Below are positions 5,103 to 23,196 of a DNA stretch of 64,000 nucleotides, in pieces; position 1 is the first letter of the stretch, and every line of letters begins with the position of its first letter. Origin of the DNA: Pseudacidovorax sp. RU35E (GTDB lineage: Bacteria > Pseudomonadota > Gammaproteobacteria > Burkholderiales > Burkholderiaceae_C). Below the pieces are notes generated by a model, which saw only the letters and a list, made by a program, of their open reading frames with translations, was not told where the DNA came from and did not search any database. Both the position numbers and the translations under genes were made by a program. Location of the stretch: positions 310,001 to 374,000 of the forward strand of contig NZ_FTMY01000002.1 of the NCBI RefSeq assembly GCF_900156165.1. Reading direction: 5' to 3'.

Positions 5103-6815
5103 ATGCTTCAGCAGCCTCACACCAAGTACCGCGCCTTCGAACCGATCGGCCTCAAGGACCGCACCTGGCCCGACGCCGTCATCACCCGTGCGCCGATCTG
5201 GCTGTCGACCGACTTGCGCGACGGCAATCAGGCCTTGGTCGAACCGATGGACCTCGAGCGCAAGATGCGCATGTTCGAGACGCTCGTGGCCATCGGCTTC
5301 AAGGAGATCGAGGTTGGCTTTCCCTCGGCCTCGCAGACCGAGTTCGACTTCGTGCGCAAGCTGATCGAGGAAGACCGCATTCCCGACGACGTGACGATCC
5401 AGGTGTTGACGCAGGCGCGCGAGCACCTGATCGAGCGCACCTTCGAGTCGCTGCAGGGCGCCCCGCGGGCCATCGTGCATCTCTACAACGCCGTGGCGCC
5501 GGTCATGCGCCGCGTGGTGCTGGGGCTCGACGAATACGGCATCGTCGAACTCGCCGTGACCCATGCGCGGATGTTCAAGGACCAGGCCGCGCGCCAGCCC
5601 GCCACCCAGTGGACTTTCCAGTATTCGCCCGAGATGTTCTCGGGCACCGACCTGGCCTTCTCCAAGCGTGTGGTCGATGCGGTGACCGCGGTCTGGGCAC
5701 CGACGCCCGAGCACAAGTGCATCGTCAACCTGCCGTCGACCGTCGAGCATTCCACGCCCAACATCTTCGCGGACATGATCGAGTGGATGCATCGCAACCT
5801 CGAGCGGCGTGATGCCATCGTGCTCTGCGCACACCCGCATAACGACCGCGGCACCGGCACGGCCGCCGCCGAGTTCGCCGTGATGGCTGGTGCCGACCGT
5901 CTGGAGGGATGCCTCTTCGGCAATGGCGAGCGCACCGGCAACCTCGACATCGTGAACGTCGCGCTCAACCTCTACACGCAAGGCGTGCCACCGGGCCTCG
6001 ACTTCTCGCACATCGACGACATCCGCGCCACGGTCGAGCACTGCAACCAGATCCCCGTGCACCCGCGCCACCCTTACGTGGGAGACCTGGTCTACACCTC
6101 CTTCTCGGGCTCGCACCAGGATGCGATCAAGAAGGCCTTCGCGGCCCGCAAGGACGGCGACATCTGGGACATCCCCTACCTCCCCATCGACCCGAAGGAC
6201 GTGGGCCGCAGCTATGAGGCTGTGATCCGCGTGAACAGCCAGTCGGGCAAGGGCGGCATCTCGTACCTGCTCGAGAGCGAATACGGCCTCGAGTTGCCGC
6301 GCCGCCTGCAGATCGAATTCAGCCAGGTGGTGCAACAGGTGATGGACGTGGAAGGCAAGGAGCTGGGCGCGGCCGACCTTTGGAGCATCTTCCGCCGCGA
6401 GTACCGCATGGACAACGCTCAGGGGCTGCGCCAGCGCGTGCAGTCCGTGGAAGGCGAGGGCGATCAGGCGCTCACCGTGCTGCGCGGCGAACTCATGTGG
6501 GCCGGTGAGTCAGTGGCGATCGAAGGTCGGGGCAACGGACCCATCGATGCCTTCAGCCGGGCGGTGGCTGAGGCCGTCGGCCAGCCGATCCGCGTGATGG
6601 ACTACCACCAGCATGCCATCGGCGCCGGCGCCGACGCGCGCTCGGTTGCCTATGTGGAAATGCGCATGGGCGACTCGCGCACGGTGTTCGGCGTCGGCAT
6701 CGATGCCGACACCACGGCCGCCGCGCTCAAGGCCATCGTCTCGGGCATGCAGCGTGTCGGAAACACGGGGATGCAGCAGGCACAATCGCCGGTTGCCGCC
6801 GAGACGACGGCCTGA
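5103..6815 (+). CDS. leuA: 2-isopropylmalate synthase, long (yeast-like) subfamily
   Basis: Condenses acetyl-CoA with 2-ketoisovalerate, the committed step of leucine synthesis. The 570-residue length and N-terminal segment [16 protein letters not shown] mark the long LeuA subfamily (TIGR00970 type). The TIM-barrel catalytic start [17 protein letters not shown] and the metal-binding [16 protein letters not shown] are present. A C-terminal LeuA dimer/regulatory domain (about 430-560) provides leucine feedback. The frame is open to 5034, inside the attenuator hairpin. ATG 5103 is preferred because it begins the conserved [13 protein letters not shown] second, shorter synthase starts 27 bases downstream. 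Confidence 0.94.
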
Positions 6816-6842
6816 AAGCGCAACGCCCACAAGGAGCCCACG

Positions 6843-8381
6843 ATGACCGACCAGCTGATCATTTTCGACACCACCTTGCGCGACGGCGAGCAGTCGCCCG
6901 GCGCCTCGATGACGCGTGACGAGAAGCTGCGGATCGCGCGGCAGCTGGAGCGGCTCAAGGTCGACGTGATCGAGGCCGGGTTCCCGGCCAGTTCCAACGG
7001 CGACTTCGAGGCGGTGCAGGCGATCGCCAACGCGATCAAGGACTCGACCGTCTGCGGCCTGTCGCGTGCCAACGACCGCGACATCTCGCGGGCCGCGGAC
7101 GCGCTGGCCGGCGCGGCCCGCGCCCGCATCCACACCTTCATCGCGACGTCGCCGCTGCACATGGAGAAGAAGCTGCGGATGACGCCAGAACAGGTCCTGG
7201 AGCAGGCCAAGCTGGCCGTGCGCTTCGCTCGCAACAAGGTGGCTGATGTGGAATTCAGCCCTGAGGACGGCTATCGCAGTGACGTGGATTTCCTGTGCCG
7301 CGTGCTGGAGACAGTCATTGCGGAAGGCGCGACCACGATCAATGTGCCCGACACCGTGGGATATGCAGTGCCCGAGTTGTACGGCAACTTCATCAGGACG
7401 CTGCGTGAGCGCGTTCCCAACAGTGACAAGGCGATCTGGTCCGTCCATTGCCACAACGACCTGGGCATGGCCGTGGCCAACTCGCTGGCCGGCGTCAAGA
7501 TCGGCGGCGCCCGGCAGGTGGAATGCACCATCAACGGCCTGGGTGAGCGCGCCGGCAACTGCTCGCTCGAAGAGATCGTGATGGCCGTGAAGACGCGCAA
7601 GGACTATTTCGGCCTCCAGCTCAACATCGACACCCAGCACATCGTGGCGGCCAGCCGCATGGTGAGCCAGACCACCGGTTTCGTGGTGCAGCCCAACAAG
7701 GCCGTCGTCGGTGCCAATGCCTTCGCCCATGCGTCCGGCATTCACCAGGACGGCGTGCTCAAGGCACGCGACACCTACGAGATCATGCGAGCCGAAGACG
7801 TGGGCTGGACCGCCAACAAGATCGTGCTCGGCAAGCTCAGTGGCCGCAATGCCTTCAAGCAGCGTCTTCAGGATCTGGGTGTGTCGATGGACAGCGAAGC
7901 CGACCTCAACGCGGCTTTCCTGCGCTTCAAGGAACTGGCGGACCGCAAGGCCGAAATTTTCGACGAAGACATCCTGGCCCTTGTCAGCGCGGAGCAGCAG
8001 TCGAACGTTGACGAGCAGTTCAGCTTTGTTTCGCTCTCCCAGCACAGCGAGACCGGTGAGCAGCCTCATGCACGCGTCGTCTTTGTCGACCATGGCAAGG
8101 AAGTGGTGGGCGAGTCCGGTGGCAATGGCCCGGTTGATGCTTCGCTCAAGGCCATCGAGTCGCATGTGAAGAGCGGCGCCGAAATGGTGCTGTATTCGGT
8201 CAATGCCATCAGCGGCTCGACCGAAAGCCAGGGCGAAGTGACGGTGCGGCTGCAGAATGCGGGGCGCGTGGTCAACGGAGTGGGCGCCGATCCCGACATC
8301 GTCGTGGCCTCCGCCAAGGCCTATCTGAGTGCCCTGAACAAGCTGCACAGCCAGACTGAGCGCGTGGCCGCGCAAGGCTAG
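6843..8381 (+). CDS. leuA: 2-isopropylmalate synthase, LeuA type 1
   Basis: A second isopropylmalate synthase of 512 residues in the E. coli-like subfamily. It begins [20 protein letters not shown] with the DTTLRDGEQ active-site motif, has [15 protein letters not shown] for metal binding and a complete C-terminal regulatory domain. It shares chemistry but little sequence with the long-form gene just upstream, so this is not a recent tandem duplication. Start ATG 6843 follows AAGGAGCCCACG. The two genes are probably co-transcribed behind the leucine attenuator. A citramalate synthase or homocitrate synthase role is possible, but the GEQ-SPG signature and domain layout favour LeuA. Confidence 0.9.
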
Positions 8382-8413
8382 TTTCGGGCGTTTTCCTGCT
8401 TGCTTGAAGAAGG

Positions 8414-8445
8414 AGGCGCAAGTCACTGATTTGCGTCTCTTTTTT
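8414..8445 (+). terminator. Rho-independent terminator after the leuA pair
   Basis: AGGCGCAAGT (8414-8423) and ATTTGCGTCT (8429-8438) pair with two G-U wobbles across CACTG, followed by CTTTTTT. It closes the leucine genes 33 bases after the stop codon. Confidence 0.85.
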
Positions 8446-8497
8446 GTATTCGATAGACTGCGGCACCTTGTCGATTTCCAAGCCGCTGGAGTAGTTG

Positions 8498-9646
8498 ATG
8501 GCCGAAGCCCCCGCGCAGCCTGTTTTGTCCCGAATTTCCTCACAGCGGTATCTGCCCGCCCTGCGCCTTCTGGCCGTGGCGCTCTGTGCAGCATCCTTTT
8601 TCACGCCCGCCGCGCATGCCAACGGCAAGAAGCAGCAGGCAGCAGCCAAGAAGCCGGCCGCGGTCAGCAAAGTGGCGGCCAAGCCTGCGAAGGCGTCCAA
8701 GGCGCGCACCGAAGAGCGCGTCGTGCGCGGCGGCCGCAACGTCATTGCCACGGTGCGAAAGAGCGGCGGCAAGACGGTGGTCGCTGTGCAGCGCCGCTCG
8801 GTGGTGCGCGTCGCCGAGCCGCCTCGCCAGTCCTTCGGGCAGCTTGCAGGTCTGCACCATTCGCAGGACCCCCTGGACCTCAAGTCCAGCGTGGCACTGG
8901 TGATGGATCAGGACACCCGTGAAGTGCTGCTGAGCAAGAACGACCACGCCGTGCTGCCCATCGCGTCGATCACCAAGCTCATGACGGGCCTGTTGATCAG
9001 CGAAGCCAAGCTGCCGATGGACGAGCCGATCACCATCACCCAGGACGACGTCGACACCGAGAAGTTCAGCCGCTCCCGTCTGGCCGTTGGCACCACGCTG
9101 CCGCGCGGCGAATTGCTGCACCTGGCTTTGATGTCCAGCGAGAACCGTGCAGCCCATGCGCTTGGTCGGACCTACCCCGGCGGCCTGGCCACGTTCGTGA
9201 GTGTCATGAATGCCAAGGCGCGGATGCTCGGCATGAAGGACACCCGCTACGTCGAGCCGACCGGCTTGTCGAGCAGCAACCAGTCGACGGCACAGGATCT
9301 GGCTCTGCTGGTCGCCGTAGCCTCCCAGGATTCGCTGGTGCGCAGCCTGACGACCTCGCCAGAGTACCAGGTCGAGATCGGCAACCGGACGCTTCAGTTC
9401 AACACCACCAACCGGCTGGTGCGCAGCCCCGACTGGGACATCGGTCTGCAGAAGACGGGTTACATCTCCGAGGCGGGTCAATGCCTCGTGATGCAGGCGC
9501 GTGTCGCCGGTCGCAAGCTGATCATGGTGTTCCTCGATTCGGCTGGCAAATTCAGCCGGATCGCCGATGCCGAGCGCGTGCGTCGGTGGGTCGAGACGAA
9601 CCGCTTTGCGCCGGTGCACACGGCCAGCAGCCAGATCTCGGGATAA
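8498..9646 (+). CDS. pbpG: D-alanyl-D-alanine endopeptidase (PBP7-like)
   Basis: Periplasmic penicillin-binding protein of the S11 peptidase family that cleaves peptidoglycan cross-links. The 382 residues start with a signal peptide (hydrophobic 21-38, likely cleavage after AHA at about 41), then a lysine/alanine-rich basic linker to about 110. The catalytic domain has all three motifs: S157-I-T-K160, S214-E-N216 and K319-T-G321. ATG 8498 is chosen; a TTG one codon earlier (8495) is also possible. The basic linker is longer than in E. coli PbpG and may bind peptidoglycan or anionic polymers. It is transcribed alone, between two hairpin terminators. Confidence 0.92.
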   Translation: MAEAPAQPVLSRISSQRYLPALRLLAVALCAASFFTPAAHANGKKQQAAAKKPAAVSKVAAKPAKASKARTEERVVRGGRNVIATVRKSGGKTVVAVQRRSVVRVAEPPRQSFGQLAGLHHSQDPLDLKSSVALVMDQDTREVLLSKNDHAVLPIASITKLMTGLLISEAKLPMDEPITITQDDVDTEKFSRSRLAVGTTLPRGELLHLALMSSENRAAHALGRTYPGGLATFVSVMNAKARMLGMKDTRYVEPTGLSSSNQSTAQDLALLVAVASQDSLVRSLTTSPEYQVEIGNRTLQFNTTNRLVRSPDWDIGLQKTGYISEAGQCLVMQARVAGRKLIMVFLDSAGKFSRIADAERVRRWVETNRFAPVHTASSQISG

Positions 9647-9675
9647 GCCGGCGCGGCACCCGTGCCGACCAGACG

Positions 9676-9697
9676 AAAGGGCCCTTCGGGGCCCTTT
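9676..9697. terminator. Hairpin terminator between convergent genes
   Basis: AAAGGGCCC, a TTCG tetraloop, then GGGCCCTTT: a perfect 9-bp stem between the pbpG stop (9646) and the stop of the minus-strand IclR gene (9749). A-rich and T-rich ends on both sides make it suitable as a bidirectional terminator. Confidence 0.85.
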
Positions 9698-9748
9698 ACG
9701 CTTTGCGTCCGCGACGCGGTCGCTTGAACAGCGCTCTGTGGCGGAAGG

Positions 9749-10570
9749 TCAGGCGGCGCGTGCTGCCGAAGAGGTGCCGTCGGACGGTGGCGTCGCACCC
9801 GCATAGCCCAACGCGCCCGAGATCTCGTTTGCCGTCGCCTGCAGCTTGGGCAACCAGCCGTCGTCGAGCCGATCGGCCGGCGCAGAGATGGACAGGCCGG
9901 CCACGAGCTTGCCCTGGTCGTCGTAGATGCCTGCGGCCATGCAACGCACCCCGAGCTCGAGCTCTTCGTTGTCGCGTGCAATGCCGTACTGGCGGGCGCG
10001 GGCCAGCTCGCGTTCGAGCACCGGCAACTGCGTGATGCTGTTGCGGGTGTGTCCGGCCAGACCCGTGCGCGTCGCGTAGCTGCGCACGCGCGGCTGTTCG
10101 TCCGCCGCCAGGAACAGCTTACCCGTCGACGTGAGGTGCAGAGGCGCCCGACCGCCGATGGCGCGCACCACCTGCATGCCGGAGCGCTCGCTGTAGGCTC
10201 TTTCGACATAGATGATCTCGTCGCCCTGGCGCACGCTCAGGTTGACCGGCTGCTGGATGAGCTTGTGCAGTTCGCGCATCGGCCCGAGCGCTGCATCGCG
10301 GACGTTGAGCCGGCCTTTCACCAGGTTGCCCAGTTCGAGCAACCGCATGCCGAGCCGGTAGCTGCCGGGCTCTGGCCTGTCCACGAAACGACCCACCGCC
10401 AGATCGTTGAGGATGCGGTGGGTGGTGGAGGGGTGCAGGCCCGTTTTCTCGCTGATCTCCTTGAGCGAGATGGCGTCCTCGCGAGACGCCAGCACGTCGA
10501 TCAAGGCAAACATGCGCTCGATGACCTGAATGACGGGCGTGGCAGGAACGTCGGTGTTGTTCTTTCTCAT
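9749..10570 (-). CDS. IclR-family transcriptional regulator
   Basis: DNA-binding regulator of 273 residues. The N-terminal winged helix-turn-helix includes SLKEISEKTGLHPSTTHRIL (about 40-60). The C-terminal IclR effector domain spans about 85-255, with GGRAPLHLTSTGKLFLA and the typical ELELGVRCMAAGIYD and VAGLSISAPADRL segments. The start is taken at ATG 10570 (MRKNNTDVP); the frame extends to a TTG at 10588. It lies 43 bases downstream of bpt in the same direction, so it may be read through from the aat-bpt pair. The ligand and target genes are unknown from sequence. Confidence 0.88.
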   Translation of the reverse strand: MRKNNTDVPATPVIQVIERMFALIDVLASREDAISLKEISEKTGLHPSTTHRILNDLAVGRFVDRPEPGSYRLGMRLLELGNLVKGRLNVRDAALGPMRELHKLIQQPVNLSVRQGDEIIYVERAYSERSGMQVVRAIGGRAPLHLTSTGKLFLAADEQPRVRSYATRTGLAGHTRNSITQLPVLERELARARQYGIARDNEELELGVRCMAAGIYDDQGKLVAGLSISAPADRLDDGWLPKLQATANEISGALGYAGATPPSDGTSSAARAA

Positions 10571-10613
10571 GGGACGGCGCTGAACCAAACGGCCGCCATT
10601 TTACAGCGTGAAA

Positions 10614-11348
10614 TCAAACGTCGCGCCAGTTGCCATCCACCAGGATCTGGTGGGGCGAAAACTTGGCCTTGTAGGCCATCTTGGCGCTGTGCTCGATCCA
10701 GTAGCCCAAGTAGACGTGCGGCAGGCCCAGTTCGCGGGCCTGGGCAATCTGCCAGAGCACGCCGTAGGTGCCAAAGGCCGTTCCGTCTTCCGGCTCGTAG
10801 AAGGTGTAGACGGCCGAGAGGCCGTCATTGAGCACATCCAGGATCGACACCATCTTCAGCGCGCCCGGGCTGCCGTCTTCGGTCGGCTCGCGGAATTCGA
10901 CCAGCCTCGAGTTGACCCGGCTCTGCAGCAGGAACTGGGTGTATTGGTCGATGCTGTCGTGGTCCATGCCGCCGCCTGCATGGCGGCCGTTCTGGTAGCG
11001 CAGGTAGAGCTGGTAGTGCTCGGGCATGAAGCACAGCCGCAGCACCCGGGCCTGCAGGTGCTGATGGCGCTGCACCGCACGGCGTTGGCTACGGCTGGGG
11101 GTGAACTTGTCGGCCAGGATGCGCAGTGGGATACAGGCCCGACATCCGTCGCAGTAGGGGCGGTAGGTGAACATGCCGCTGCGGCGAAAGCCGCCCAACA
11201 CCAGATCGGAATAAGCGTCGCTGTTGATGAGGTGGCTGGGCGTGGCCACCTGGGAGCGCGCCTGACGGTCGGGCAGATAGCTGCAGGGGTAGGGCGCAGT
11301 CGCGTAGAACTGCAGCGTCTGGAGCGGCAGATCCTTGAGGAGCGTCAT
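10614..11348 (-). CDS. bpt: Aspartate/glutamate leucyltransferase
   Basis: Bacterial protein transferase of the ATE1-like family that adds leucine from Leu-tRNA to proteins beginning with Asp or Glu, creating N-degrons for ClpS/ClpAP. The 244 residues show the N-terminal cysteine-bearing segment APYPCSYLP and [18 protein letters not shown], which are conserved in the family. The C-terminal GNAT-like half ends with [20 protein letters not shown]. Its start codon overlaps the aat stop by four bases (ATGA), so the two N-degron transferases are translationally coupled. Confidence 0.93.
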
Positions 11349-12106
11349 TGCGGTGCCGGCAGGAGTTCATTCCAGTATATGGGGTCGAATTGCCACGTCG
11401 GGATGGCTGGCTGCTTGCACGCGTCGCCGATGTGGGCGAGGAATGGCGCCCTCGGCCATTCGCTTGCGCCCAGGCTGGCGAGGTGGGCCGTGTTCTGCTG
11501 GCAGTCGATGGCCTGCACGCCATGATGGCGACAGAAGGCCACCAGCGCCGCCAGCGCGATCTTCGAAGCATCGGTTCGTCGCGCGAACATCGATTCGCCG
11601 AAGACCGACCGGCCCAGCGCGACGCAATAAAGGCCACCGACGAGCTCGTTGTCGATCCAGGTCTCCACGCTGTGCGCATGGCCGGCGCGGTGCAGCGCGC
11701 GGTAGGCCTCCTGCATCTGCGGAAGGATCCAGGTGCCCGACTGCCCAGGCCGCGGTGAACCTGCGCAGGCGGCGATCACCTCATTGAATGCGTGATCGAT
11801 GCGGACTTCGCACCGCGGCATCTGCTGGCGAAACACCTGCAGCGTCTTTCGCAGCGAGCGGTGCAGCCGGAAGTCCTGCGGTCGCAGCACCATCCGAGGG
11901 TCGGGGCTCCACCACAGGATGGGCTGGTCGTCGCCAAACCACGGAAAGATTCCGTGGCTGTACGCATCGAGCAGCGTGGGCACGTCGAGCGCGCCCCCGG
12001 CGGCCACCACGCCGGGGACGGGGTCGCTCGGGCCCCAGGCGGTTTCGGCCGGCGGCAAGGGCTCGCCTTCAGCGAGCCAGGGCAGTTTTCGAGGAGATCG
12101 GGCCAC
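11345..12106 (-). CDS. aat: Leucyl/phenylalanyl-tRNA--protein transferase
   Basis: Transfers Leu or Phe to proteins with N-terminal Arg or Lys, feeding the N-degron pathway. Family motifs are [42 protein letters not shown] and [11 protein letters not shown] 12106 ([16 protein letters not shown]) gives 253 residues and places the conserved LPWL near the N-terminus, as expected. The frame is open to a GTG at 12208, but those extra 34 residues are not family-like. It is the first gene of the aat-bpt pair and overlaps bpt by four bases. The 242 bases upstream, toward the divergent response regulator, show no clear promoter. Confidence 0.92.
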
Positions 12107-12348
12107 AGGCCGATTCTGGGGCAATCCCTTGGCGCACCCGCGGCCCTGGACCTGGAAGCTGTCGAAGCGCCCGCTCGGACGTGCGCCCCCCTCCTCGGGC
12201 CATGTCACCCAAAAAGGCTACGTGCTCAACCGAGATTGCGGCACACTTCCGGCCGGCCGGTTTTTACCGAGCCATCGAGGGCGCCGACCCAGACTTCGTC
12301 GGCGTCGAGAAGAAGTTTCGAGGCGAATCCGCCTTTCCAGGAGCTTGC

Positions 12349-12984
12349 GTGTTTCGCCTGCTGATCTGTGACGACCATCCGCCCATCCGGACGGCACTGC
12401 GGCTGCTCGCCCGACAGGTCGATGCCACGAGCGACGTCACCGAAACCGGCAACGCCCGGGATCTTGTCGAGGTGCTGCGGGGTCGTCGTGACTTCGACCT
12501 GCTGGTGCTCGACCTGCAACTGCCCGGCATGTCCGGCCTCAACGTGCTGTCGGAAGTGAAGCAGCTGCGCCCCGAACTGGCCGTGCTCGTGCTCTCGGCC
12601 GACGAAAGCCCCCAGAGCGTCGATGCGGCCCTGCAGGCCGGTGCTTCCAGCTACCTCTTCAAGTCGGCAAGCGAGACGGTGCTGTTCCAGGCGCTCAAGG
12701 ACGTGTGCGGCCGCCGGCTCGCCTTGCCCGAGAGCATCACGGCCAAGGCCGGTGGCCGCGGTCGCACCGTGCCCGACGACGGGCTGGCGCTTTCCGCCCG
12801 GCAACGTGATGTGCTGAACTGCCTGTTGCATGGCATGTCGGCCAAGCAGGTCGCGCGTACGCTCGGCTTGTCCGAAGGCACGGTCAAGAGCCACACCGTG
12901 GCCGTCTTCAGAGCCCTCAATGTGAGTTCGCGCGCGCAGGCGGTGGTCGAGGCGCATCGACGGGGCATCACGCTTGGATGCTGA
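12349..12984 (+). CDS. Response regulator, NarL/LuxR type
   Basis: Two-component response regulator of 211 residues. The receiver domain starts FRLLICDDHPP and carries the phospho-acceptor D55 in LLVLDLQLPG. The C-terminal LuxR helix-turn-helix is LSARQRDVLNCLLHGMSAKQ then VARTLGLSEGTVKSHTVAVF. The start is GTG 12349, preceded by CAGGAG at 12338-12343; upstream frame extension to 11788 is antisense to aat and rejected. The 3' end overlaps the hybrid kinase gene by 11 bases, so kinase and regulator are coupled. The giant fusion gene follows directly and is a candidate target or co-operon member. Confidence 0.9.
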   Translation: MFRLLICDDHPPIRTALRLLARQVDATSDVTETGNARDLVEVLRGRRDFDLLVLDLQLPGMSGLNVLSEVKQLRPELAVLVLSADESPQSVDAALQAGASSYLFKSASETVLFQALKDVCGRRLALPESITAKAGGRGRTVPDDGLALSARQRDVLNCLLHGMSAKQVARTLGLSEGTVKSHTVAVFRALNVSSRAQAVVEAHRRGITLGC

Positions 12985-14674
12985 GTCCTACGAACGCGAA
13001 CTGATCGGTTTTGCCCTGGCCCAGGCTGCAGCTGCGGCCAAGCTGGCCCTGGTGGGCGTGCTCATCCTGGTCGCCGTGACCTGGCACGATGTGGGCGCAT
13101 GGGGCGTGGCGGCCTGGGGCGTGTCCGCGGCGGGCACGCTGTTGCTGCGCAACCGCCTGATCGCGCGACCGACGGACTTGCTGGCGCAAGGGCGCCCGGC
13201 GCCGCAGGCGCGCCGTGTCCTCTGGGTGTCGTCGCTCGTGCTGTCCGCTGTCCTGGCCAGCCTGCCCGCGGCCGGACTGCCCCACATGGAGACGGAAGTC
13301 GGGCTGCTGGTGACGCTGTTCTTCTGCTGCTGGGGCGCGGCGGGAATGTCGTCCCTGGGCATCGTGCCGCGGCTCTACACGAGCTACCTGGGTGTCATGC
13401 TGGGCGGGGTCGCACTGGGATGGGCGCGCGATTTCACGACCTCGTTGTCGCCGGCGATCATGGGCGGCCTGCTCATGTACTGGCTTGTGCTGAGTGCATT
13501 CGGCCATGGCTTCTCGCGCCGGGTCGCCGAAGGCATCGCCATCCGCGCGGAGAACGCGCAACTGGTCAAGCAGCTGTCGGCCGCGAATGCGGCCAAGACA
13601 CGCTTCATCATGACCGCCAGCCATGACCTGCGCCAGCCGCTACATGCCATCGGGCTGCTGGGCGGCGTGCTGGCGCGTGCCACCAGCGCCGAAGACATCC
13701 ACCGGGCGCGGGAGGCCCTGTCGACCGCGCTCGAAGGCCTGCAGCAGCTCTTTTCGGCGATCCTCGATCTGTCCCGCATGGACAGCGGCACGCTGCGCCC
13801 CGATCTGCGCTACGTCCCGATTGCGCCGCTCGTGGCCCGCCTGGACATTGAATACCGCGCACTCTGCCTCGAAGGTGGCCGGCGCTGGGAGTGCCGCGCC
13901 GAGACGGCCCACGTGCGCACCGACCTCGCGCTGCTCGAACGCGTGCTGCGCAACCTTCTGGACAACGCGCTCAAGCACGGCGGCGATGGCGGTGTCTGCC
14001 TGGCGCTTTCCACGCCATCCGGCCAGGTGATGCTCGAGGTCTCGGACACCGGTCCGGGCATTCCGGTCGAAGAGCGCGAACGCGTGTTCGACGAGTTCTA
14101 CCGCAGCCGGGACGTGACATCCGCCGGCATGGGCCTGGGCCTGTCGATCGTGCAGCGGCTGGCCCGGCTGCTCCATGCGGAATTGCGGATGGAGTTCGTC
14201 GACCCGGTCCGCCGGACCGGCACGCGGGTCATGCTGGTGCTGCCGATGGCACAGCCCTCCGACGAGCAGGCGGTCGAGCCCGAGGTAGCGCTGCCCGACC
14301 TTCACGGCCTGCGAGTGCTCATCCTTGACGACGAGGCGGCCGTGCTCGACGCCACCCGGGCCCTGCTGGAGCAGTGGGGCTGCGTTGTGGCGACCTGCCG
14401 CTCGGGCAGCGAGGTGGCCGGGGCGGTGCAGCGCCTGGGCGCGCCGCACGTCGCCTTGACCGATTACCGCCTGAGCCCGACGGAGAACGGGTTGGCCGCG
14501 CTGGAGGCCCTGCGGGCCGAGCAGCCGGAGATGGGCTGTGTGATCGTCACCGGCGAGTCCGATCCCGCCATCCGCCAACGGCTGGCGGACGAGGGTCTGC
14601 CGGTGCTCGAGAAACCGGTGGATCCTGAAGAACTGCGTGCGGTGCTGGGACTGTTCCGCGCCATGGACGACTGA
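12974..14674 (+). CDS. Hybrid sensor histidine kinase with C-terminal receiver domain
   Basis: Membrane sensor kinase of 566 residues starting at TTG 12974, overlapping the regulator gene. About six hydrophobic segments fill residues 20-180, with no large periplasmic loop, suggesting sensing in or at the membrane. The HisKA domain has H217 in ASHDLRQPLHAIG. The ATPase domain has NLLDNALKHGG, DTGPGIP and GMGLGLSIVQRLA. The C-terminal receiver (about 435-560) starts LRVLILDDEAAV with D497 in ALTDYRLSP, and K in LPVLEKPVDP. Such kinases often pass phosphate through the internal receiver. The fusion gene starts 18 bases downstream. Confidence 0.92.
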   Translation: MDAESYERELIGFALAQAAAAAKLALVGVLILVAVTWHDVGAWGVAAWGVSAAGTLLLRNRLIARPTDLLAQGRPAPQARRVLWVSSLVLSAVLASLPAAGLPHMETEVGLLVTLFFCCWGAAGMSSLGIVPRLYTSYLGVMLGGVALGWARDFTTSLSPAIMGGLLMYWLVLSAFGHGFSRRVAEGIAIRAENAQLVKQLSAANAAKTRFIMTASHDLRQPLHAIGLLGGVLARATSAEDIHRAREALSTALEGLQQLFSAILDLSRMDSGTLRPDLRYVPIAPLVARLDIEYRALCLEGGRRWECRAETAHVRTDLALLERVLRNLLDNALKHGGDGGVCLALSTPSGQVMLEVSDTGPGIPVEERERVFDEFYRSRDVTSAGMGLGLSIVQRLARLLHAELRMEFVDPVRRTGTRVMLVLPMAQPSDEQAVEPEVALPDLHGLRVLILDDEAAVLDATRALLEQWGCVVATCRSGSEVAGAVQRLGAPHVALTDYRLSPTENGLAALEALRAEQPEMGCVIVTGESDPAIRQRLADEGLPVLEKPVDPEELRAVLGLFRAMDD

Positions 14675-14692
14675 CGAACGAAAGGGCGATCG

Positions 14693-17600
14693 ATGCAGTG
14701 GCTTTCCGACAACCTGGAGGCGCTGCTCCAAGCGCCCGATGACCAGCGGTGTTCCGATGTCGTGGTGGTGGGCTCGGGCTACGGCGGCTCGGTCGCCGCC
14801 CTGCGAATGGCCGATGCCGGCCTGAAGGTCTGCATGCTCGAGCGCGGCCAGGAGTACGTCGCGGGCGAGTTTCCGAGCGACCTGGGCGACGTGGGCAAGC
14901 ATGTGCGAGCCCAGTGGCAAGGGCCGGCAGGGGTGCAGAGTGCGGGCTACGAAGAGGCCCTCTTCGACTTCCGGGTGGGGCAGGGCGCTGCAGCCCTGGT
15001 GGGCAATGGCCTGGGGGGAGGCAGCCTCATCAACGCGGGTGTGGGCTTGCAGCCCGATGCCGAGGTGTTCCAGGCCGAGCCCTGGCCGACCGCGATCCGT
15101 CGCACCAACCTTGGCCCCTGGTTCGACGAGGCCCGCCGCATGCTGGAGCTGTCGGATCCGGCCGACCCGATGCGGGTCTTCGACATGCGGTCCACGCGCA
15201 AGTACCAGTCCTTGCAGGCCCTGCACGAACGACTGCCGAGCCGGATGCCTACGCCGGACACGGCGACGGTGGGGGCGGTGTTCGAGGAAGTGCCAGTGGC
15301 CGTGTGCCTGCACCCGTGGCAACTGGACGCGGACGGCGGCGCGCTGGGGCCACGTTCGGCCTGCATCGGCTGCGGCAACTGCGTCAGCGGGTGCAACGAG
15401 GACGCCAAGCTCAGCCTGACCAAGACCTACCTGCCGGCGGCGCGTCGGGCTGGTGCGCGCCTCTTCACCGGCGCGACGGTGCTGAGCGTCCATCGGGACG
15501 ACGGGCATCGCTTCCCGTGGGCGCTGCGGATCGTGCGCACGGCCGAGCGCGCGCTGTACGAGGGCCTGCGCGCGGATGTCGCGGCCGCCATGCCCACGCA
15601 GTGGGTCCATGTCCTGCGGGCGCGCCATGTGGTGCTGGCCGCAGGCACCTTCGGCAGCACCGAGATCCTGCTGCGCTCCCGCGTGGCGCAGACCGATGCC
15701 GACGGACTTCGCTGGCATGGCCTTTCCACCAGCGAGCGCCTGGGCGAGCGCGTCTCCGGCAATGGCGACGACGTCGCCTGCATCGCGGAGCTGGAGGCGC
15801 CCGCCAACGCCCTGGGCGAGACATCCGCCGGGCCGAACGACGAGCCGACGGGGCCGACCATCTCGGCCATGATCCGCTTTCGCGACGGCGGGGACGCGCG
15901 TCGTTCCACGCTGGTGCAGGACGGCGGCGTACCCGGCCTGCTGGGTCCGGTGTTCCAGGAACTGATCCAGACCCTGACCACCGTGGCCCGACTGGACGAC
16001 CCGGCGGCGCCACCAGCCGACGGCTCGGACGATCTCGCACCGCAACCGCAGGTGCGCACTCATTCGCTCACCCTGCTCGGCATGGGGCACGACGACAGTC
16101 CCGCGCGGATCGAACTCGATGCGCAGGGCGACCGGGTGCGCTGGCTCTGGCCCCGACCGGAGCAGGCGGAGGCGCCGCCGCTGCACCGGGCGCGCGTGCA
16201 GGCGGGCACGGGCGGCCGCCATGGACGCTACCTGCGCAACCCCGGCAGTGGCATCCTCCCCGACACCCTGAGCAGCCTGATGAGCGGCCCCGACATGGGC
16301 CAGGTGCTGGCCACGGTCCATCCGCTGGGTGGATGCGCGATGGCCGACGATGCGACGCAGGGTGTGTGCAACCATGTCGGCCAGGTCTTCCGCGGTGCGG
16401 GCGGCACCGACGTCCACGAGGGCCTGTACGTCATGGACGGCTCGGTGATTCCCACCTCGCTGGGCGTCAATCCGATGCTCACGATCACGGCCCTGGCCGA
16501 GAGAAGCTGCGCCGAGCTCATCGCGCGGGAGCAGGCCGCGGGAGGCGCCCGCGCGCCGGTGCCGTCCACCGCCACCCGCCGGCCGCTTCCGCCGCCCCTG
16601 GACCCTGCGCCCCGACCGACGAGCACTGCGGGCGCCGTGCCGGCCGGCGCATCGCTGCGCGAGGTGCTGCGGGGTCCGGTGGCGGTGGATACGGCGCTGC
16701 AGCTGTGCGGGCCCCTGCCATCGGGCATGGCCGCGTCAGAGCATGCCGCATCGCTCTTCGTGAAGATGGAGGTGGCGGACTGGGCCGCGTTTCTCGCCGA
16801 TCCCCGCCACCGTGCGCCGGTGCAGCCATCGTGGACGACGAAGCCCAAGACCTACGAGGCGGCGCGCCTGCGCCTCAAGCTCGAAGGACGGGCCGAGCGC
16901 ACCTTGTGGGTGGAGCAGGGCCATGCGGACCTCTATGCGCGTCGAGCCGAGCCCTGGCCCGTGCATGCCGGCCGCTTCGTGCGGTTGGGCCTGACCTACA
17001 CGATCAACCGCTGGTGGCCAGACCGGGGCAGGACGCCTGGGCAGAGCGGCGGGTGGCGCCCCTCGAGGCTGTGGCGGACGGCCAAGCTGCTGCGCAGCAC
17101 GCTGACGATGTTGTGGCAGGCGGCCGAGGTGCGCGTCTTCGACTACCGGCTGGTGCTGCGCATGCAGGAGGCGCCCGACCAGCCGCTGTACCTCCAGGGC
17201 ACCAAGGTCATCGACGGTGCGGCCTCGGGCGAGGCCCTGCGGCACTGGCTGGCTGAGCGGGTGAAGCACGGCGGCTGGCCGGCGGTGGAGCGGCTCAGCA
17301 TCTGGAGCCAGCTGGGCGAACTGCCGGTTTCGCTCACCGATGCGCCGGATGGCGCGGGCCGCGTCCTCCTGCAGGGCCGCTTGCGCATGGACCTGCCCGA
17401 CATCGCCCGCAACCTGCTGCCGCAGCTGCATGCGGGCCGCGACAGCCTGACGGCGACCATGGCGGCGCTGGGCTATCCGCTGCTGCTGGCGCGCGGCCTG
17501 CTGCGCACGCGCTTTCTGGACTTCCGGGCGCCTGACTATGCCGAGCGCACCGTCCCGAAACTGCAGGACGAGGGCAAGGATCCGCCGGCGTACCGGCGCG

Positions 17601-20600
17601 CCAGGGACGAGCGGGTCTGGCTGCGCTTTCCCGAGGGCTGGGAGCACCTGGGCTTTCCGCCTTTGCACCGGCGCGCCCACCCCGACAAGGCGCCGTGCCC
17701 GCCGATCCGCCTGCAGGTGCGGGCGCGTCTGGACGATCCGGCCGCCTCGCCCGTGGAACTGGCGCTCGTGCGCTACCGGCAGGACGACCTGCACGTCCAG
17801 CCACGCGATGCCCAGGGTGCCCGGCGCGTGCGTGCGCTGCTGATGATGAATGGCTTCGCGCAGTCCACCTTGCCCTTCGTCGAGCCTCTGATGCACAGCG
17901 ACAGCCTCGCCGCGCGTCTCTATGACGAGGGCTGGGACCTCTGGCTGCTCGAGTACCGGGTGAGCCCGCTGCTCGAAGCCTCCGCCCGCTTCGCGACCAT
18001 GGACGACATCGCCGCCTTCGACATCCCGGCGGCCGTGGCGCGCATCTGCGAAGAGCTGGGCGAGCAACTGGGCATGCCGCCCGAGCTCGTGCGCATCCAC
18101 GCCTTCAGCCACTGCGTGGGCGCGGCGTCGCTTGCCATGTCGCTGGCGGGCGGTCACCTCGCCATCGCGCATCCGGACGGGGGCGAGGACAAGATCCATC
18201 GTCTGGCCGGCGTGGTCTTCTCGCAGTTCCAGCCCTACGTCATCGGCTCCAACTCTGCGCAGCAGCGCCTGCAGCTGGGCGCTTTCATGAACAACGTGCT
18301 GGGGCGCGAGTACCTGGAGTTCGCGGCGGGCGTGGGCACGCCGGACGTTCTGCATGGCCTGCTCGACCGTGTGTTCGCCACCATGCCCCATCCCGACCTG
18401 CCCTGCGTGCCTCGCGGCGAGGCCTGCCCGCACCAGGACGCGGGTTGCCCCCACGGGGCGCGCTGTCCGCACAAGACGCAGGCCTGTCCGCATGAATCGG
18501 ACCTCCGCCTGCACCAGCCCGACACCACCACCTGCAAGCGCATGTCCGGACTGCTCAGTCCGCTGTTCGATCACGGGCGATTGGGCGAGACCTACCACGC
18601 GCGGCTGGACATGTACTTCGGGCGGACCAATCTCGGCGTCTTCCTGCATGGCGCCAAGTGCGTGGAACATGAGCGGCTGGTGGACAACGATGGCCGCGAC
18701 TACCTCTCCGACGACAAGGTGCGCCAGTACCTCGACATGCCGATCATGCTGATGCATGGCAGCGACAACCAGCTCTTCGACATCGGCTCGCTGGCACGCA
18801 GCGCGGACCAGCTGCGCCGCGTCTTCGGAGAGGAGGGGCCCGTGGACCCGTCCGCCACGACCATGCCCCGCGTCACAGCGCATCGGCTTCCCGGCTTCGC
18901 GCATTTCGACTGCACGATCGGCCGCGCGGCGGCGCAGGAGGTCTTTCCCCGCATCGCGCGTTTCCTGGCCGACGCCTGGGACCGGCCCCTCGCTCAGCCC
19001 CCGGTGCGACGCCATGTCGAAGCCCGACTGCCCGCCACCGGCCCGCTGATGGGCTGGGTGCGGCCGGATGAAGACGGGGGCACCGTGGTCCGCGTCTGGG
19101 CGGAGTTCGGCCGCCGCTACAGCGGACTGCTGGTGGGCGGCCTGACCACGGCACAAGGAATGCGCGATGGGAAACCCTGGCGCCTGGACCAGGCCTGGCC
19201 CACGCGCACCGTGGTCCTGCGCACGCAGCCGGGTGCCGACGCGCCGCCGGGCACGGCCTACCCGCTCAGCATCCTGGTGGCCGACGTGGTGCTGCCCGTG
19301 GATGTGACCGAGGCGCACATCGACGTCTTCGGGCTCTACACCTTCGACGGTGGCGCAGCAGCTGGCGCCGGAATGCTGCTTGGGCAGGCGGCGCCGGCGG
19401 CCGATGCGCTGGCGGATGCAGGCAGGCGGTGGGACCTGGAGGCGCGTGAGCTCGCCCAGGCCCGGCTCGACTTCGAAGCCATCACCAGCCAGGGCGCCGG
19501 CGTGGTCGAGCCGGCGCAGGGCGCGACCGTGGACCGCGGCCCCGTCGGCATGGCGCGCCCTGCGCCCGGCGACGTCGACCCGCCGTCGGCGAAGACGCCT
19601 CGCCGCCTGATGCCCAGAGTGGCCCGCGTGGCGCTCCCGCCGGAAGGCGCCGACGCCGACGACAGCCCGTTCGGCAAGGACCACCTGATCGGACCGGTGA
19701 GCGGACAGGGCGCGGTCTTGGACCAGGACTTCGTGGAGGCGTTGATCGACCGCCTGTCGGCGGAGCTCACACGGCGCTCCAGCGCCGCACGCAGCGCCGA
19801 TCCCGCGACGCTGTCGCGTGTGGCCCGCGAGCTCGCCACGTTGGCGCAGGCCCGGGTGCAGGTGGCCGACGCCCTGCGCCGTCCTGACGACATCGACACC
19901 ACCTTCTATGCCGCGGCCTGCCGGCATCCGGGCATCTCGGGTTTCGAGACCGCGCGTTCGGACGGCAGCCTTGCGGCCCTGACGGCCGCACATGCCGCGT
20001 CGGGAGAGGCTCGCTTCATGGCCATGCTGGGCGACCAGGTCTATGCCGATGCGCGGGCCGGCCTGTTCGACACGGCTTCCGAGCTGGAGCGCATCCTGCC
20101 GCGCTACCGCGACGCCCTGGGCTCTCCCGGCTTTCGTGCGCTGGCCGAACGTCTGCCGCTCTACATGGTGCTGGACGACCATGAGATCGTGGACAACTGG
20201 ACGCGTGAGCAGCTGGATCTTGGCCGCAACGGTCTGTGGCGTGCCAGCACGGCGCGCACGGCGTACCGCGCCTTCCAGCGCGCGCATGGACCCGATCCCT
20301 TCCTGGGCGAGCTCGGGGCCACGGACGACCTGCAGCACCATGGGGCCTTCCGGTGCGGCGGCGTGTCGGCCTTCCTGCTCGATACCCGCACGGCGCGCCG
20401 CCTGGGCACGCGGGCCATCCTGTCGACCACCGCCTGGTCACTGCTCGAGAAGTGGCTCTGCGCGCAGCAGCGCGAGCGGGGCGATGCGCCCAAGTGGGTG
20501 ATGTCCGGCTCGGTGATCGCGCCGGGCCTGCGCGAATCCGCAGGTCGTCCTTCGCCCCGCCAATCGGACAGCTGGCAGATGTCGCCCAGCGACCGGCAGC

Positions 20601-20974
20601 GATTCTTCGATCTGCTGGTGCGCCACCGGATCCAGAACGTGGTCCTGCTGTCCAGCGACTATCACTGCAGCGCTGTGGCCCGGCTCGAGATCGGCCCCGC
20701 GCTGCGCGGCTTGGCCATCGTCGCGCCGCCGCTTCACGCACCCATGCGCTTCGCCAATTCGCTCGCGCAGACCGTGATGGCGGACGAGCGGTTGCCGATC
20801 GGCGAGGGGCTGCAGGTGAGGGTGACGGGGCTGGGTGCCTGGGACGGTGAGGGCTGGCTGTCCGTGCTCCAACGGCAGTCGGATGGCAGGCGCTGGCGGG
20901 TGTCGCTGGACTTCCAGCTGCGCGGGCTGGAAGAACGGACCCATATGCCGCACACGCTGGACGTCGACCTGTGA
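14693..20974 (+). CDS. Giant fusion: GMC (cholesterol-oxidase-like) flavoenzyme + alpha/beta-hydrolase + PhoD-like phosphatase
   Basis: A single 2093-residue frame. Residues about 20-625 form a GMC flavoenzyme: FAD motif GSGYGG (27-32), active-site H543 in HPLGGC and N593 in GVNPM. Inserted in it is a ferredoxin-like C224-x2-C227-x2-C230-x3-C234. About 720-1000 is an unrecognised region. About 1044-1430 is an alpha/beta-hydrolase with a cysteine elbow (SHC1141VG), D1358 and H1404. It carries an insert with four CPH units (1245-1267). From about 1450 a beta domain, then a PhoD-like metallophosphatase with D1781 (LGDQVYAD), DDHE 1828-1831 and SSDYH 1987-1991. No signal peptide is visible, so it is probably cytosolic. 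Start ATG 14693 is 18 bases after the kinase gene. The substrate is unknown; sterol-like or lipid phosphate substrates are inference only. Confidence 0.85.
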   Translation: MQWLSDNLEALLQAPDDQRCSDVVVVGSGYGGSVAALRMADAGLKVCMLERGQEYVAGEFPSDLGDVGKHVRAQWQGPAGVQSAGYEEALFDFRVGQGAAALVGNGLGGGSLINAGVGLQPDAEVFQAEPWPTAIRRTNLGPWFDEARRMLELSDPADPMRVFDMRSTRKYQSLQALHERLPSRMPTPDTATVGAVFEEVPVAVCLHPWQLDADGGALGPRSACIGCGNCVSGCNEDAKLSLTKTYLPAARRAGARLFTGATVLSVHRDDGHRFPWALRIVRTAERALYEGLRADVAAAMPTQWVHVLRARHVVLAAGTFGSTEILLRSRVAQTDADGLRWHGLSTSERLGERVSGNGDDVACIAELEAPANALGETSAGPNDEPTGPTISAMIRFRDGGDARRSTLVQDGGVPGLLGPVFQELIQTLTTVARLDDPAAPPADGSDDLAPQPQVRTHSLTLLGMGHDDSPARIELDAQGDRVRWLWPRPEQAEAPPLHRARVQAGTGGRHGRYLRNPGSGILPDTLSSLMSGPDMGQVLATVHPLGGCAMADDATQGVCNHVGQVFRGAGGTDVHEGLYVMDGSVIPTSLGVNPMLTITALAERSCAELIAREQAAGGARAPVPSTATRRPLPPPLDPAPRPTSTAGAVPAGASLREVLRGPVAVDTALQLCGPLPSGMAASEHAASLFVKMEVADWAAFLADPRHRAPVQPSWTTKPKTYEAARLRLKLEGRAERTLWVEQGHADLYARRAEPWPVHAGRFVRLGLTYTINRWWPDRGRTPGQSGGWRPSRLWRTAKLLRSTLTMLWQAAEVRVFDYRLVLRMQEAPDQPLYLQGTKVIDGAASGEALRHWLAERVKHGGWPAVERLSIWSQLGELPVSLTDAPDGAGRVLLQGRLRMDLPDIARNLLPQLHAGRDSLTATMAALGYPLLLARGLLRTRFLDFRAPDYAERTVPKLQDEGKDPPAYRRARDERVWLRFPEGWEHLGFPPLHRRAHPDKAPCPPIRLQVRARLDDPAASPVELALVRYRQDDLHVQPRDAQGARRVRALLMMNGFAQSTLPFVEPLMHSDSLAARLYDEGWDLWLLEYRVSPLLEASARFATMDDIAAFDIPAAVARICEELGEQLGMPPELVRIHAFSHCVGAASLAMSLAGGHLAIAHPDGGEDKIHRLAGVVFSQFQPYVIGSNSAQQRLQLGAFMNNVLGREYLEFAAGVGTPDVLHGLLDRVFATMPHPDLPCVPRGEACPHQDAGCPHGARCPHKTQACPHESDLRLHQPDTTTCKRMSGLLSPLFDHGRLGETYHARLDMYFGRTNLGVFLHGAKCVEHERLVDNDGRDYLSDDKVRQYLDMPIMLMHGSDNQLFDIGSLARSADQLRRVFGEEGPVDPSATTMPRVTAHRLPGFAHFDCTIGRAAAQEVFPRIARFLADAWDRPLAQPPVRRHVEARLPATGPLMGWVRPDEDGGTVVRVWAEFGRRYSGLLVGGLTTAQGMRDGKPWRLDQAWPTRTVVLRTQPGADAPPGTAYPLSILVADVVLPVDVTEAHIDVFGLYTFDGGAAAGAGMLLGQAAPAADALADAGRRWDLEARELAQARLDFEAITSQGAGVVEPAQGATVDRGPVGMARPAPGDVDPPSAKTPRRLMPRVARVALPPEGADADDSPFGKDHLIGPVSGQGAVLDQDFVEALIDRLSAELTRRSSAARSADPATLSRVARELATLAQARVQVADALRRPDDIDTTFYAAACRHPGISGFETARSDGSLAALTAAHAASGEARFMAMLGDQVYADARAGLFDTASELERILPRYRDALGSPGFRALAERLPLYMVLDDHEIVDNWTREQLDLGRNGLWRASTARTAYRAFQRAHGPDPFLGELGATDDLQHHGAFRCGGVSAFLLDTRTARRLGTRAILSTTAWSLLEKWLCAQQRERGDAPKWVMSGSVIAPGLRESAGRPSPRQSDSWQMSPSDRQRFFDLLVRHRIQNVVLLSSDYHCSAVARLEIGPALRGLAIVAPPLHAPMRFANSLAQTVMADERLPIGEGLQVRVTGLGAWDGEGWLSVLQRQSDGRRWRVSLDFQLRGLEERTHMPHTLDVDL

Positions 20975-21092: not shown

Positions 21093-23196
<2,104 letters not shown>

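Follow-up and report, generated by a model that had tools for sequence, protein, structure and literature searches.

PhoD-like phosphatases (PF09423) have Fe/Ca-dependent phosphodiesterase activity, and all of the component enzymes of the locus described here are of known kinds. Among GMC flavoenzymes, the catalytic subunit of the FAD glucose dehydrogenase of Burkholderia cepacia (6a2u) has a Cys cluster with 3Fe-4S that carries electrons from FAD, as one study describes (PMC6719666). The kinase NahK/ErcS' and its homologue PedS1 are placed among the members of the ped alcohol-oxidation cluster in another (PMC12997753). In the window, the 64,000-nucleotide stretch of Pseudacidovorax sp. RU35E DNA that was analysed, a GMC flavoenzyme, an unannotated domain, an alpha/beta hydrolase and a beta-sandwich with a PhoD-type phosphoesterase form the four modules of a single chain (Table 1). 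No paper on this fusion was found by title and abstract in a literature search whose scope left most subscription journals outside.

Table 1. Features of the fused gene and its upstream regulators, in window coordinates.
Feature	Position	Strand	Basis or remark
LuxR/NarL-type response regulator	12349..12984	+	Response_reg, GerE; GTG start at 12349 is a reading, longest frame from 11788
Hybrid histidine kinase, C-terminal receiver, NahK/ErcS-like core	12974..14674	+	HisKA, HATPase, Response_reg; overlaps end of regulator gene
2093-aa fused enzyme	14693..20974	+	ATG start, no internal stop, 18 bases past kinase stop
Module 1, GMC flavoenzyme, residues 1-620 (FAD motif G27-G31, H543, N593)	14693..16552	+	Pfam, profile search, conservation
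CxxCxxCxxxC (C224, C227, C230, C234), ferredoxin-like, possible iron-sulfur site	15362..15394	+	all four Cys conserved, in 82-83 of 83 rows each
Module 2, unannotated domain, residues about 653-985	16649..17647	+	conservation across 83 rows
Module 3, acid-lipase-like alpha/beta hydrolase, residues about 1010-1430	17720..18982	+	family profile, predicted structure
C1141, nucleophile position	18113..18115	+	Cys in 83 of 83 rows; aligns with lipase Ser
Insertion with four Cys-Pro-His, residues 1238-1267	18404..18493	+	seen in the window protein and in three rows of the same genus
N1359, aligned with the catalytic Asp of lipases	18767..18769	+	Asn in 80 of 83 rows, Ser in 3
H1404, catalytic His position	18902..18904	+	82 of 83 rows
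Module 4a, beta-sandwich preceding phosphatase, residues 1441-1550	19013..19342	+	all-strand region of predicted structure
Linker, residues 1556-1664, mostly disordered	19358..19684	+	low pLDDT
Module 4b, PhoD-type phosphoesterase, residues about 1675-2060 (C1743, D1781, Y1784, D1828-E1831, D1989, H1991)	19715..20872	+	Pfam, alignment, fold

Modules of the fused protein

The 2093-aa frame is genuine. The original prediction had described three enzymes in one uninterrupted frame, and this was borne out by three assemblies from the same genus (G001, G010 and G011) that keep the frame whole at 2098-2104 aa with 72-73% identity to the window protein, so a frameshift or assembly artefact is ruled out. 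The sequence AAAGGG lies just upstream of the ATG. Among 15 genomes of the genus, host included, 7 had any match and 4 a complete copy, indicating that the gene is accessory; no PHROG matches suggesting a phage link were found at E <= 1e-5. There is no strongly hydrophobic stretch along the chain, which suggests a cytosolic location. Conservation was counted in an alignment of 83 rows, comprising the window and 82 of 87 loci (L007, L021-L106), with near-copies retained; the five left out (L026, L045, L055, L072 and L089) had no GMC and hydrolase match within one frame. Counts for the PhoD module used 47 rows. The residues that had been read as catalytic motifs, H543/N593, C1141 and H1404, are conserved in 82, 83, 83 and 82 of the 83 rows, respectively.

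Module 1 belongs to the GMC family by its domains (Pfam GMC_oxred_N, 40.3 bits with a cut-off of 23; GMC_oxred_C, 48.9 bits with a cut-off of 24.6), its active-site His and its FAD motif, in which G27, G29 and G31 are each found in 82 of 83 rows. The GMC profile matched cholesterol oxidase at E 1.8e-53; against the cholesterol oxidase equivalog NF058674 the score was 152.1 bits, with a cut-off of 850. The CxxCxxCxxxC motif is, judged by its sequence, a possible iron-sulfur site, and all Fer4 matches on the window protein were below the Pfam cut-off. This motif, at residues 224-234, and the further domain at about residues 653-985 were absent from the original prediction. In that domain E657, Y818 and K838 are invariant, each being kept in 83 of 83 rows; a Pfam scan of 9 segments gave it no hit above the cut-off, and a sequence search of the PDB found no match.

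When the domains were searched separately, the GMC and PhoD parts proposed earlier passed Pfam, and the hydrolase region, which had no Pfam match on the window protein itself, was recognized only through its family profile and predicted structure. The profile found gastric lipase at E 9.8e-20 and lysosomal acid lipase at E 2.7e-16, and the top fold match of the predicted structure was lysosomal acid lipase (6v7n; E 2.4e-10, TM 0.65 by target length), so that module 3 has both the alpha/beta hydrolase fold of the acid lipases and sequence kinship to them. In place of their Ser-His-Asp triad it has Cys (83 of 83 rows), His (82) and Asn (80), and the Asn may weaken hydrolysis. D1358 had been taken for the triad Asp, a misassignment, as Asp occurs there in just 39 of 83 rows and the lipase acid aligns with N1359. 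The Cys-His-Asp triad of PHA synthases is likewise not found, the acid place being occupied by Asn or Ser in all 83 rows. Residues 1238 and 1245 of the insertion are occupied in 4 of 83 rows.

The linker within module 4 is 34.5% identical to that of one related locus (L027), versus 72-75% on both flanks. Module 4b scored 73.8 bits against PhoD PF09423 (cut-off 27) and matched Bacillus subtilis PhoD (2yeq) by sequence at E 9.5e-24 and by fold at E 3.6e-12, with a TM of 0.45 by target length. The metallophosphatase motifs that had been placed at 1781, 1828-1831 and 1987-1991 are upheld by conservation: D1828, D1829, E1831 and H1991 are invariant in the 47 rows, and D1781 and D1989 are present in at least 90%.

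Fused and split loci and their neighbours

Locus counts were taken from 80 matches listed in one scan, and many of these are close relatives, so the counts are non-independent. Among the listed matches, all modules were in one frame at 33 of 80 loci, from alpha-, beta- and gammaproteobacteria, and PhoD was the next gene on the same strand at 14 of 80. On a quickly built tree of 65 rows, for which 15 near-copies and L066, L091 and L093 were dropped from the 83, the fused and split labels change at least 7 times; the two forms thus interchange, and a single chain is not required. At 17 of the 29 two-domain loci among the 80 listed, another metallophosphatase lies directly upstream or at most 2 genes downstream, as counted with five phosphatase queries drawn from the very loci counted. 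Thirteen of the 17 are Pseudomonas or Chromobacterium, and both two-domain plasmid loci (L024, L025) have such a neighbour. The five queries found no match at the other 12 (L066, L073, L077, L083, L090, L091, L092, L093, L095, L097, L104 and L106). The contigs of L066, L091 and L093 stop inside the gene; L066 and L091, scored as two-domain, end within frames of 1513 and 1682 aa and so may be cut fused genes.

A common origin of the neighbouring phosphatases was not supported: hhalign comparisons of PhoD with two Metallophos families, and of these two with each other, gave no match, from inputs of 3 and 4 rows that are shallow enough that distant kinship within the calcineurin-like superfamily may still exist. 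The Azospirillum phosphatase, named metallophosphoesterase in its record, scored 19.5 against PF00149 (cut-off 21.5) and was compared by BLAST only.

The kinase upstream of the fused gene matched NF041832 at E 2.3e-78 (264 bits, cut-off 400) and has four hydrophobic stretches, whose first residues all fall in the range 10 to 158; the top NCBIfam scores of the regulator, NarL and ErdR, were both below cut-off. Among the listed matches, a kinase like that of the window was found near 35 of 47 PhoD-bearing loci (24 of 33 fused, 11 of 14 split) and was missing near 9 fused and 3 split loci. The base rate, 48 matches in the 5.69-Mb host genome or about 1 per 118 kb, is rough because the E-values come from two differently sized searches. 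Given how often, among the listed matches, the modules are fused, PhoD is the next gene, a metallophosphatase lies nearby and the kinase recurs, phosphoester removal is very probably linked to the oxidase-hydrolase, in agreement with the dedicated multi-step pathway, encoded right after a two-component system, that had been proposed. That modules with no other connection are fused in some lineages and adjacent in others is direct evidence that they serve one process, and the kinase-regulator pair near most PhoD-bearing loci offers a handle on the inducer.

Proposed function and rival explanations

The reading we prefer, at a probability of about 0.5, is a cytosolic multi-enzyme, controlled by the adjacent alcohol-oxidation-type two-component system, that dismantles one lipid-like alcohol bearing an acyl ester and a phosphoester. 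The PhoD module would strip the phospho group from this substrate, the Cys-nucleophile acid-lipase module would take off or transfer the acyl group via a thioester, and the GMC module would oxidise the freed alcohol, with electrons leaving FAD, perhaps through the iron-sulfur site, to an acceptor. More tentatively, the locus may represent a conserved machine of four modules, in which an acid-lipase-fold enzyme with Cys-His-Asn, the Glu/Tyr/Lys domain, a phosphodiesterase and a GMC dehydrogenase with an iron-sulfur cluster would serve a novel phosphorylated-ester-lipid pathway into which phosphatases were recruited several times.

Were the Cys module a synthase or acyltransferase, the protein would build or remodel an oxidised ester lipid rather than degrade one. 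PHA synthases have a Cys in the same elbow, a weak profile match was found to 9knj (E 5.4e-4), and a study of PhaC reports an acyl-Cys intermediate (PMC5509742). The same study has PhaC retaining Asp (PMC5509742), however, where the module 3 family has Asn, and lipases are the top matches of module 3 both in sequence and in fold, which makes a synthase unlikely. Less probable still is that the tethering serves co-expression alone, each enzyme having a substrate of its own. The swapping of fusion and fission on the tree would suit such an arrangement, as would the long, low-confidence and poorly conserved linker before PhoD, but the same GMC-hydrolase is repeatedly accompanied, across lineages, by phosphatases of families between which no kinship was detected, a pattern that co-expression alone would not predict.

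Sterol processing by a steryl-ester hydrolase, a sterol oxidase and a phosphatase is close to what the original prediction suggested, and the nearest solved relatives are indeed cholesterol oxidase and lysosomal acid lipase/cholesteryl ester hydrolase. This kinship leaves the substrate unfixed. The best match in the host genome to one KstD model reached 61 bits (cut-off 789), SQHop_cyclase_N (the hopene cyclase N-domain) had no match there, and the cholesterol-oxidase equivalog score was 152 against 850; searches with this single KstD model and single cyclase domain thus did not support sterol or hopanoid metabolism in the host, and we regard a sterol-like substrate as highly improbable. The Cys-His-Asn variant of the acid-lipase fold and the middle domain with its three invariant polar residues are testable, and the identity of the substrate would assign a function to proteins labelled just 'alpha/beta fold hydrolase' or 'GMC family oxidoreductase'.

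Comparison with known systems

A chain like that of the window, with GMC, hydrolase and PhoD, is the plasmid-borne, 1908-aa 'alpha/beta fold hydrolase' of Ensifer sp. PDNC004 (WP_205239617.1), which differs in being 29% identical to the window protein and in adjoining a guanylate-cyclase/AAA gene, with no kinase match nearby. For module 1, the best-scoring solved relatives are the bacterial cholesterol oxidases (1b4v, 4u2l), whose active-site His and Asn it keeps, whereas its four-Cys motif is missing in the aligned oxidases. The B. cepacia dehydrogenase 6a2u, matched by module 1 at E 5.3e-19, also belongs to the GMC family and has a Cys cluster, but the cluster ligands C212, C218 and C222 have another spacing. 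PhaC shares with module 3 a Cys nucleophile in the alpha/beta hydrolase elbow, but differs in its Cys-His-Asp triad, and the score is weak. Module 4b has conserved motifs and a fold in common with B. subtilis PhoD, and differs in its C-terminal place within a fused chain, which shows no evident secretion signal. Gastric and lysosomal acid lipases (1hlg, 1k8q, 6v7n) match module 3 by both sequence and fold, whereas module 3 has Cys for Ser and Asn for Asp and is part of a bacterial, fused and probably cytosolic protein.

Reality of the fused frame and its genomic setting

The original prediction of an uninterrupted frame, which an assembly frameshift might have produced, was confirmed by three same-genus genomes that keep the whole protein in one frame at 72-73% identity; in a fourth, the two ends of the protein lie on separate contigs. 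Of the 15 genomes of the genus, counting that of the window, seven have some match. An order-level sample of 120 genomes, own included, gave matches at E <= 1e-20 in ten, where open-frame reading indicated GMC and PhoD in a single frame (four), two genes (one), a two-domain GMC-hydrolase (three, one of them called from length alone) or GMC only (two). The host genome comprises 28 contigs totalling 5.69 Mb. The fused gene starts with its ATG 18 bases after the stop codon of the kinase gene.

Coordinates of the fused gene, its neighbours and features of related loci
Feature	Sequence	Coordinates	Strand	Remarks
Response regulator gene	Window	about 12349-12984		Upstream of kinase gene
Hybrid histidine kinase gene	Window	12974-14674		Overlaps response regulator gene
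Fused gene	Window	14693-20974	+	2093 residues, stop-free frame, ATG start
Four Cys-Pro-His	Window	18404-18493		Insertion in hydrolase module; only in window and same-genus rows
FAD_binding_3 monooxygenase-like gene	Window	21093-22514	-	Converges on fused gene
DUF6765 protein	L006	3319-4425		Pfam match; adjoins two-domain relative
DUF6765-related frame	L106	8232-9401		29% identical; adjoins two-domain relative of a second lineage
Guanylate-cyclase/AAA regulator	L021 (Ensifer)	5459-9469		Adjoins fused gene
Interrupted copy	L023 (Ensifer canadensis)	7605-13593		Two frames; Gln replaces GMC active-site His; decayed or misassembled
GMC enzyme and weakly hydrolase-like protein (E 2e-5)	L072 (Chloroflexi bin)	5936-9355		Two adjoining genes
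RoxA-like cytochrome c gene	L075 (Pseudomonas)	13550-15415		Right after oxidase-hydrolase gene
Calcineurin-like phosphatase gene	L075 (Pseudomonas)	15446-16687		Follows cytochrome gene

Distribution and neighbouring genes

A contig scan limited to the best 80 loci of 558 relatives, a selection that the locus counts here describe, found all three recognised enzymes fused in 33, a GMC-hydrolase followed by a separate PhoD gene in 14, the two-domain form without a PhoD match in 26 (in three more the contig runs out before the frame does) and GMC only in four, three of these at contig ends. Fused loci in this selection include Pseudacidovorax, Variovorax, Rhodoferax, Polaromonas, Ramlibacter, Hydrogenophaga, Hahella, Arenicella, Cellvibrionaceae, Ensifer, Chelatococcus and Ruegeria, and the fused gene also occurs on Ensifer plasmids. 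A quick, unrooted tree built from 65 GMC domains places the two-domain rows on one side of a single starred branch, so that one change is enough to explain the presence of PhoD. For the fused, split and two-domain states taken together, at least seven changes are required.

Among these best 80, a kinase like that of the window lay near 24 of the 33 fused loci, 11 of the 14 split ones, 8 of the 29 with two domains and 2 of the 4 with GMC only, against a rough own-genome base rate of 48 kinase matches per 5.69 Mb. The best scores, none of which reached its cut-off, were with the NahK/ErcS family for the kinase core and with NarL and ErdR for the response regulator; one account places NahK/ErcS' and the P. 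putida homologue PedS1 in an alcohol-oxidation cluster (PMC12997753). Alphaproteobacterial loci carry a guanylate-cyclase/AAA gene in the kinase's stead, and frames related to the L021 regulator were present in Mesorhizobium, Chelatococcus and Ruegeria loci, all lacking the kinase.

Metallophosphatase genes were found near 17 of the 29 two-domain loci in the selection, counts that are not independent since 13 are from Pseudomonas or Chromobacterium; none of five phosphatase queries matched at the other 12. Across two-domain relatives, plasmid loci beyond the selection included, the gene is immediately upstream in Erythrobacter, Qipengyuania, a Saprospiraceae bin, a Variovorax plasmid and an Azospirillum plasmid, and downstream in the 13 Pseudomonas and Chromobacterium loci, where a RoxA-like cytochrome c gene precedes it in 12; locus L105 has the phosphatase without a cytochrome match. 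Cytochrome c is expected in the periplasm, and this Pseudomonas neighbour does not fit easily with a cytosolic enzyme. By hhalign with shallow inputs, two of the neighbouring phosphatase families match neither PhoD nor one another. With 10 PF00149 and three PhoD matches in the host genome, chance phosphatase adjacency should be rare.

It is very likely that the GMC, hydrolase and phosphatase enzymes share one process, because they are fused, adjacent when split, and paired elsewhere with phosphatases of other families. The module chemistry suggests a single lipid-like molecule that would lose its phospho and acyl groups and be oxidised at an alcohol. A sterol-like substrate, proposed earlier, gained no support from own-genome searches for sterol or hopanoid metabolism (one KstD model and SQHop_cyclase_N).

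The four modules and their known relatives

Module 1 matches Pfam GMC_oxred_N and GMC_oxred_C, and its family profile matches cholesterol oxidase (E 1.8e-53) and glucose dehydrogenase (E 5.3e-19). The predicted active-site pair held across the 83-row alignment of the window protein and 82 loci (H543 in 82, N593 in 83). C224, C227, C230 and C234 are each kept in 82-83 of the 83 rows, whereas the aligned cholesterol oxidase members do not have them. The catalytic GMC subunit of glucose dehydrogenase from B. cepacia is described as binding 3Fe-4S through a Cys cluster (PMC6719666). The four cysteines of module 1 may bind a cluster.

The PhoD-like motifs of module 4 were likewise upheld: PF09423 scored 73.8 bits against a cut-off of 27, D1828, D1829, E1831 and H1991 are invariant across 47 aligned rows, and C1743, D1781, Y1784, H1830 and D1989 each occur in at least 90% of them. 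The 47-row profile matched 2yeq (E 9.5e-24), which was also the first match of a structure model built from 45 rows (pLDDT 78.4, pTM 0.81; E 3.6e-12, TM 0.45 by target length), with purple acid phosphatases and SMPDL3A lower in the ranking. N-terminal to the catalytic part the model places a beta-sandwich and a linker of low confidence.

Absent from the original list of domains was module 2 (residues about 653-985), which had no over-cut-off Pfam match and no match among PDB sequences. Its model is mostly confident, with strands and long helices, and E657, Y818 and K838 are invariant (83/83 rows).

The fused protein's components are of known kinds. One public protein record, named 'alpha/beta fold hydrolase', has the same architecture, and literature searches aimed at the fusion returned no paper about it by title and abstract. 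There is a minority chance that the middle domain and a Cys-His-Asn module make this protein something new.

A 50-row profile covering modules 2 and 3 matched the gastric lipases 1hlg (E 9.8e-20) and 1k8q (E 5.2e-18) and the lysosomal acid lipase 6v7n (E 2.7e-16); PHA synthase was a weak match. The top Foldseek match of the hydrolase model (47 rows, mean pLDDT 85.6, pTM 0.88) was 6v7n (E 2.4e-10), with an rmsd of 7.4 and a target-length TM of 0.65. The Cys-Pro-His insertion of module 3 is a possible metal site. As to the proposed triad of C1141, D1358 and H1404, its Cys and His stood (83/83 and 82/83 rows), but position 1358 is Asp in only 39 of 83 rows, and it is N1359 that aligns opposite the Asp of the lipase GGxD, which we take to be catalytic; position 1359 is Asn in 80 rows and Ser in the other three. 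In the profile alignment, gastric and lysosomal acid lipases have Ser and Asp where module 3 has C1141 and N1359. The triad of PhaC is described as Cys-His-Asp (PMC5509742), and module 3 differs from it in carrying Asn at 1359, in 80 of the 83 rows, instead of the Asp.
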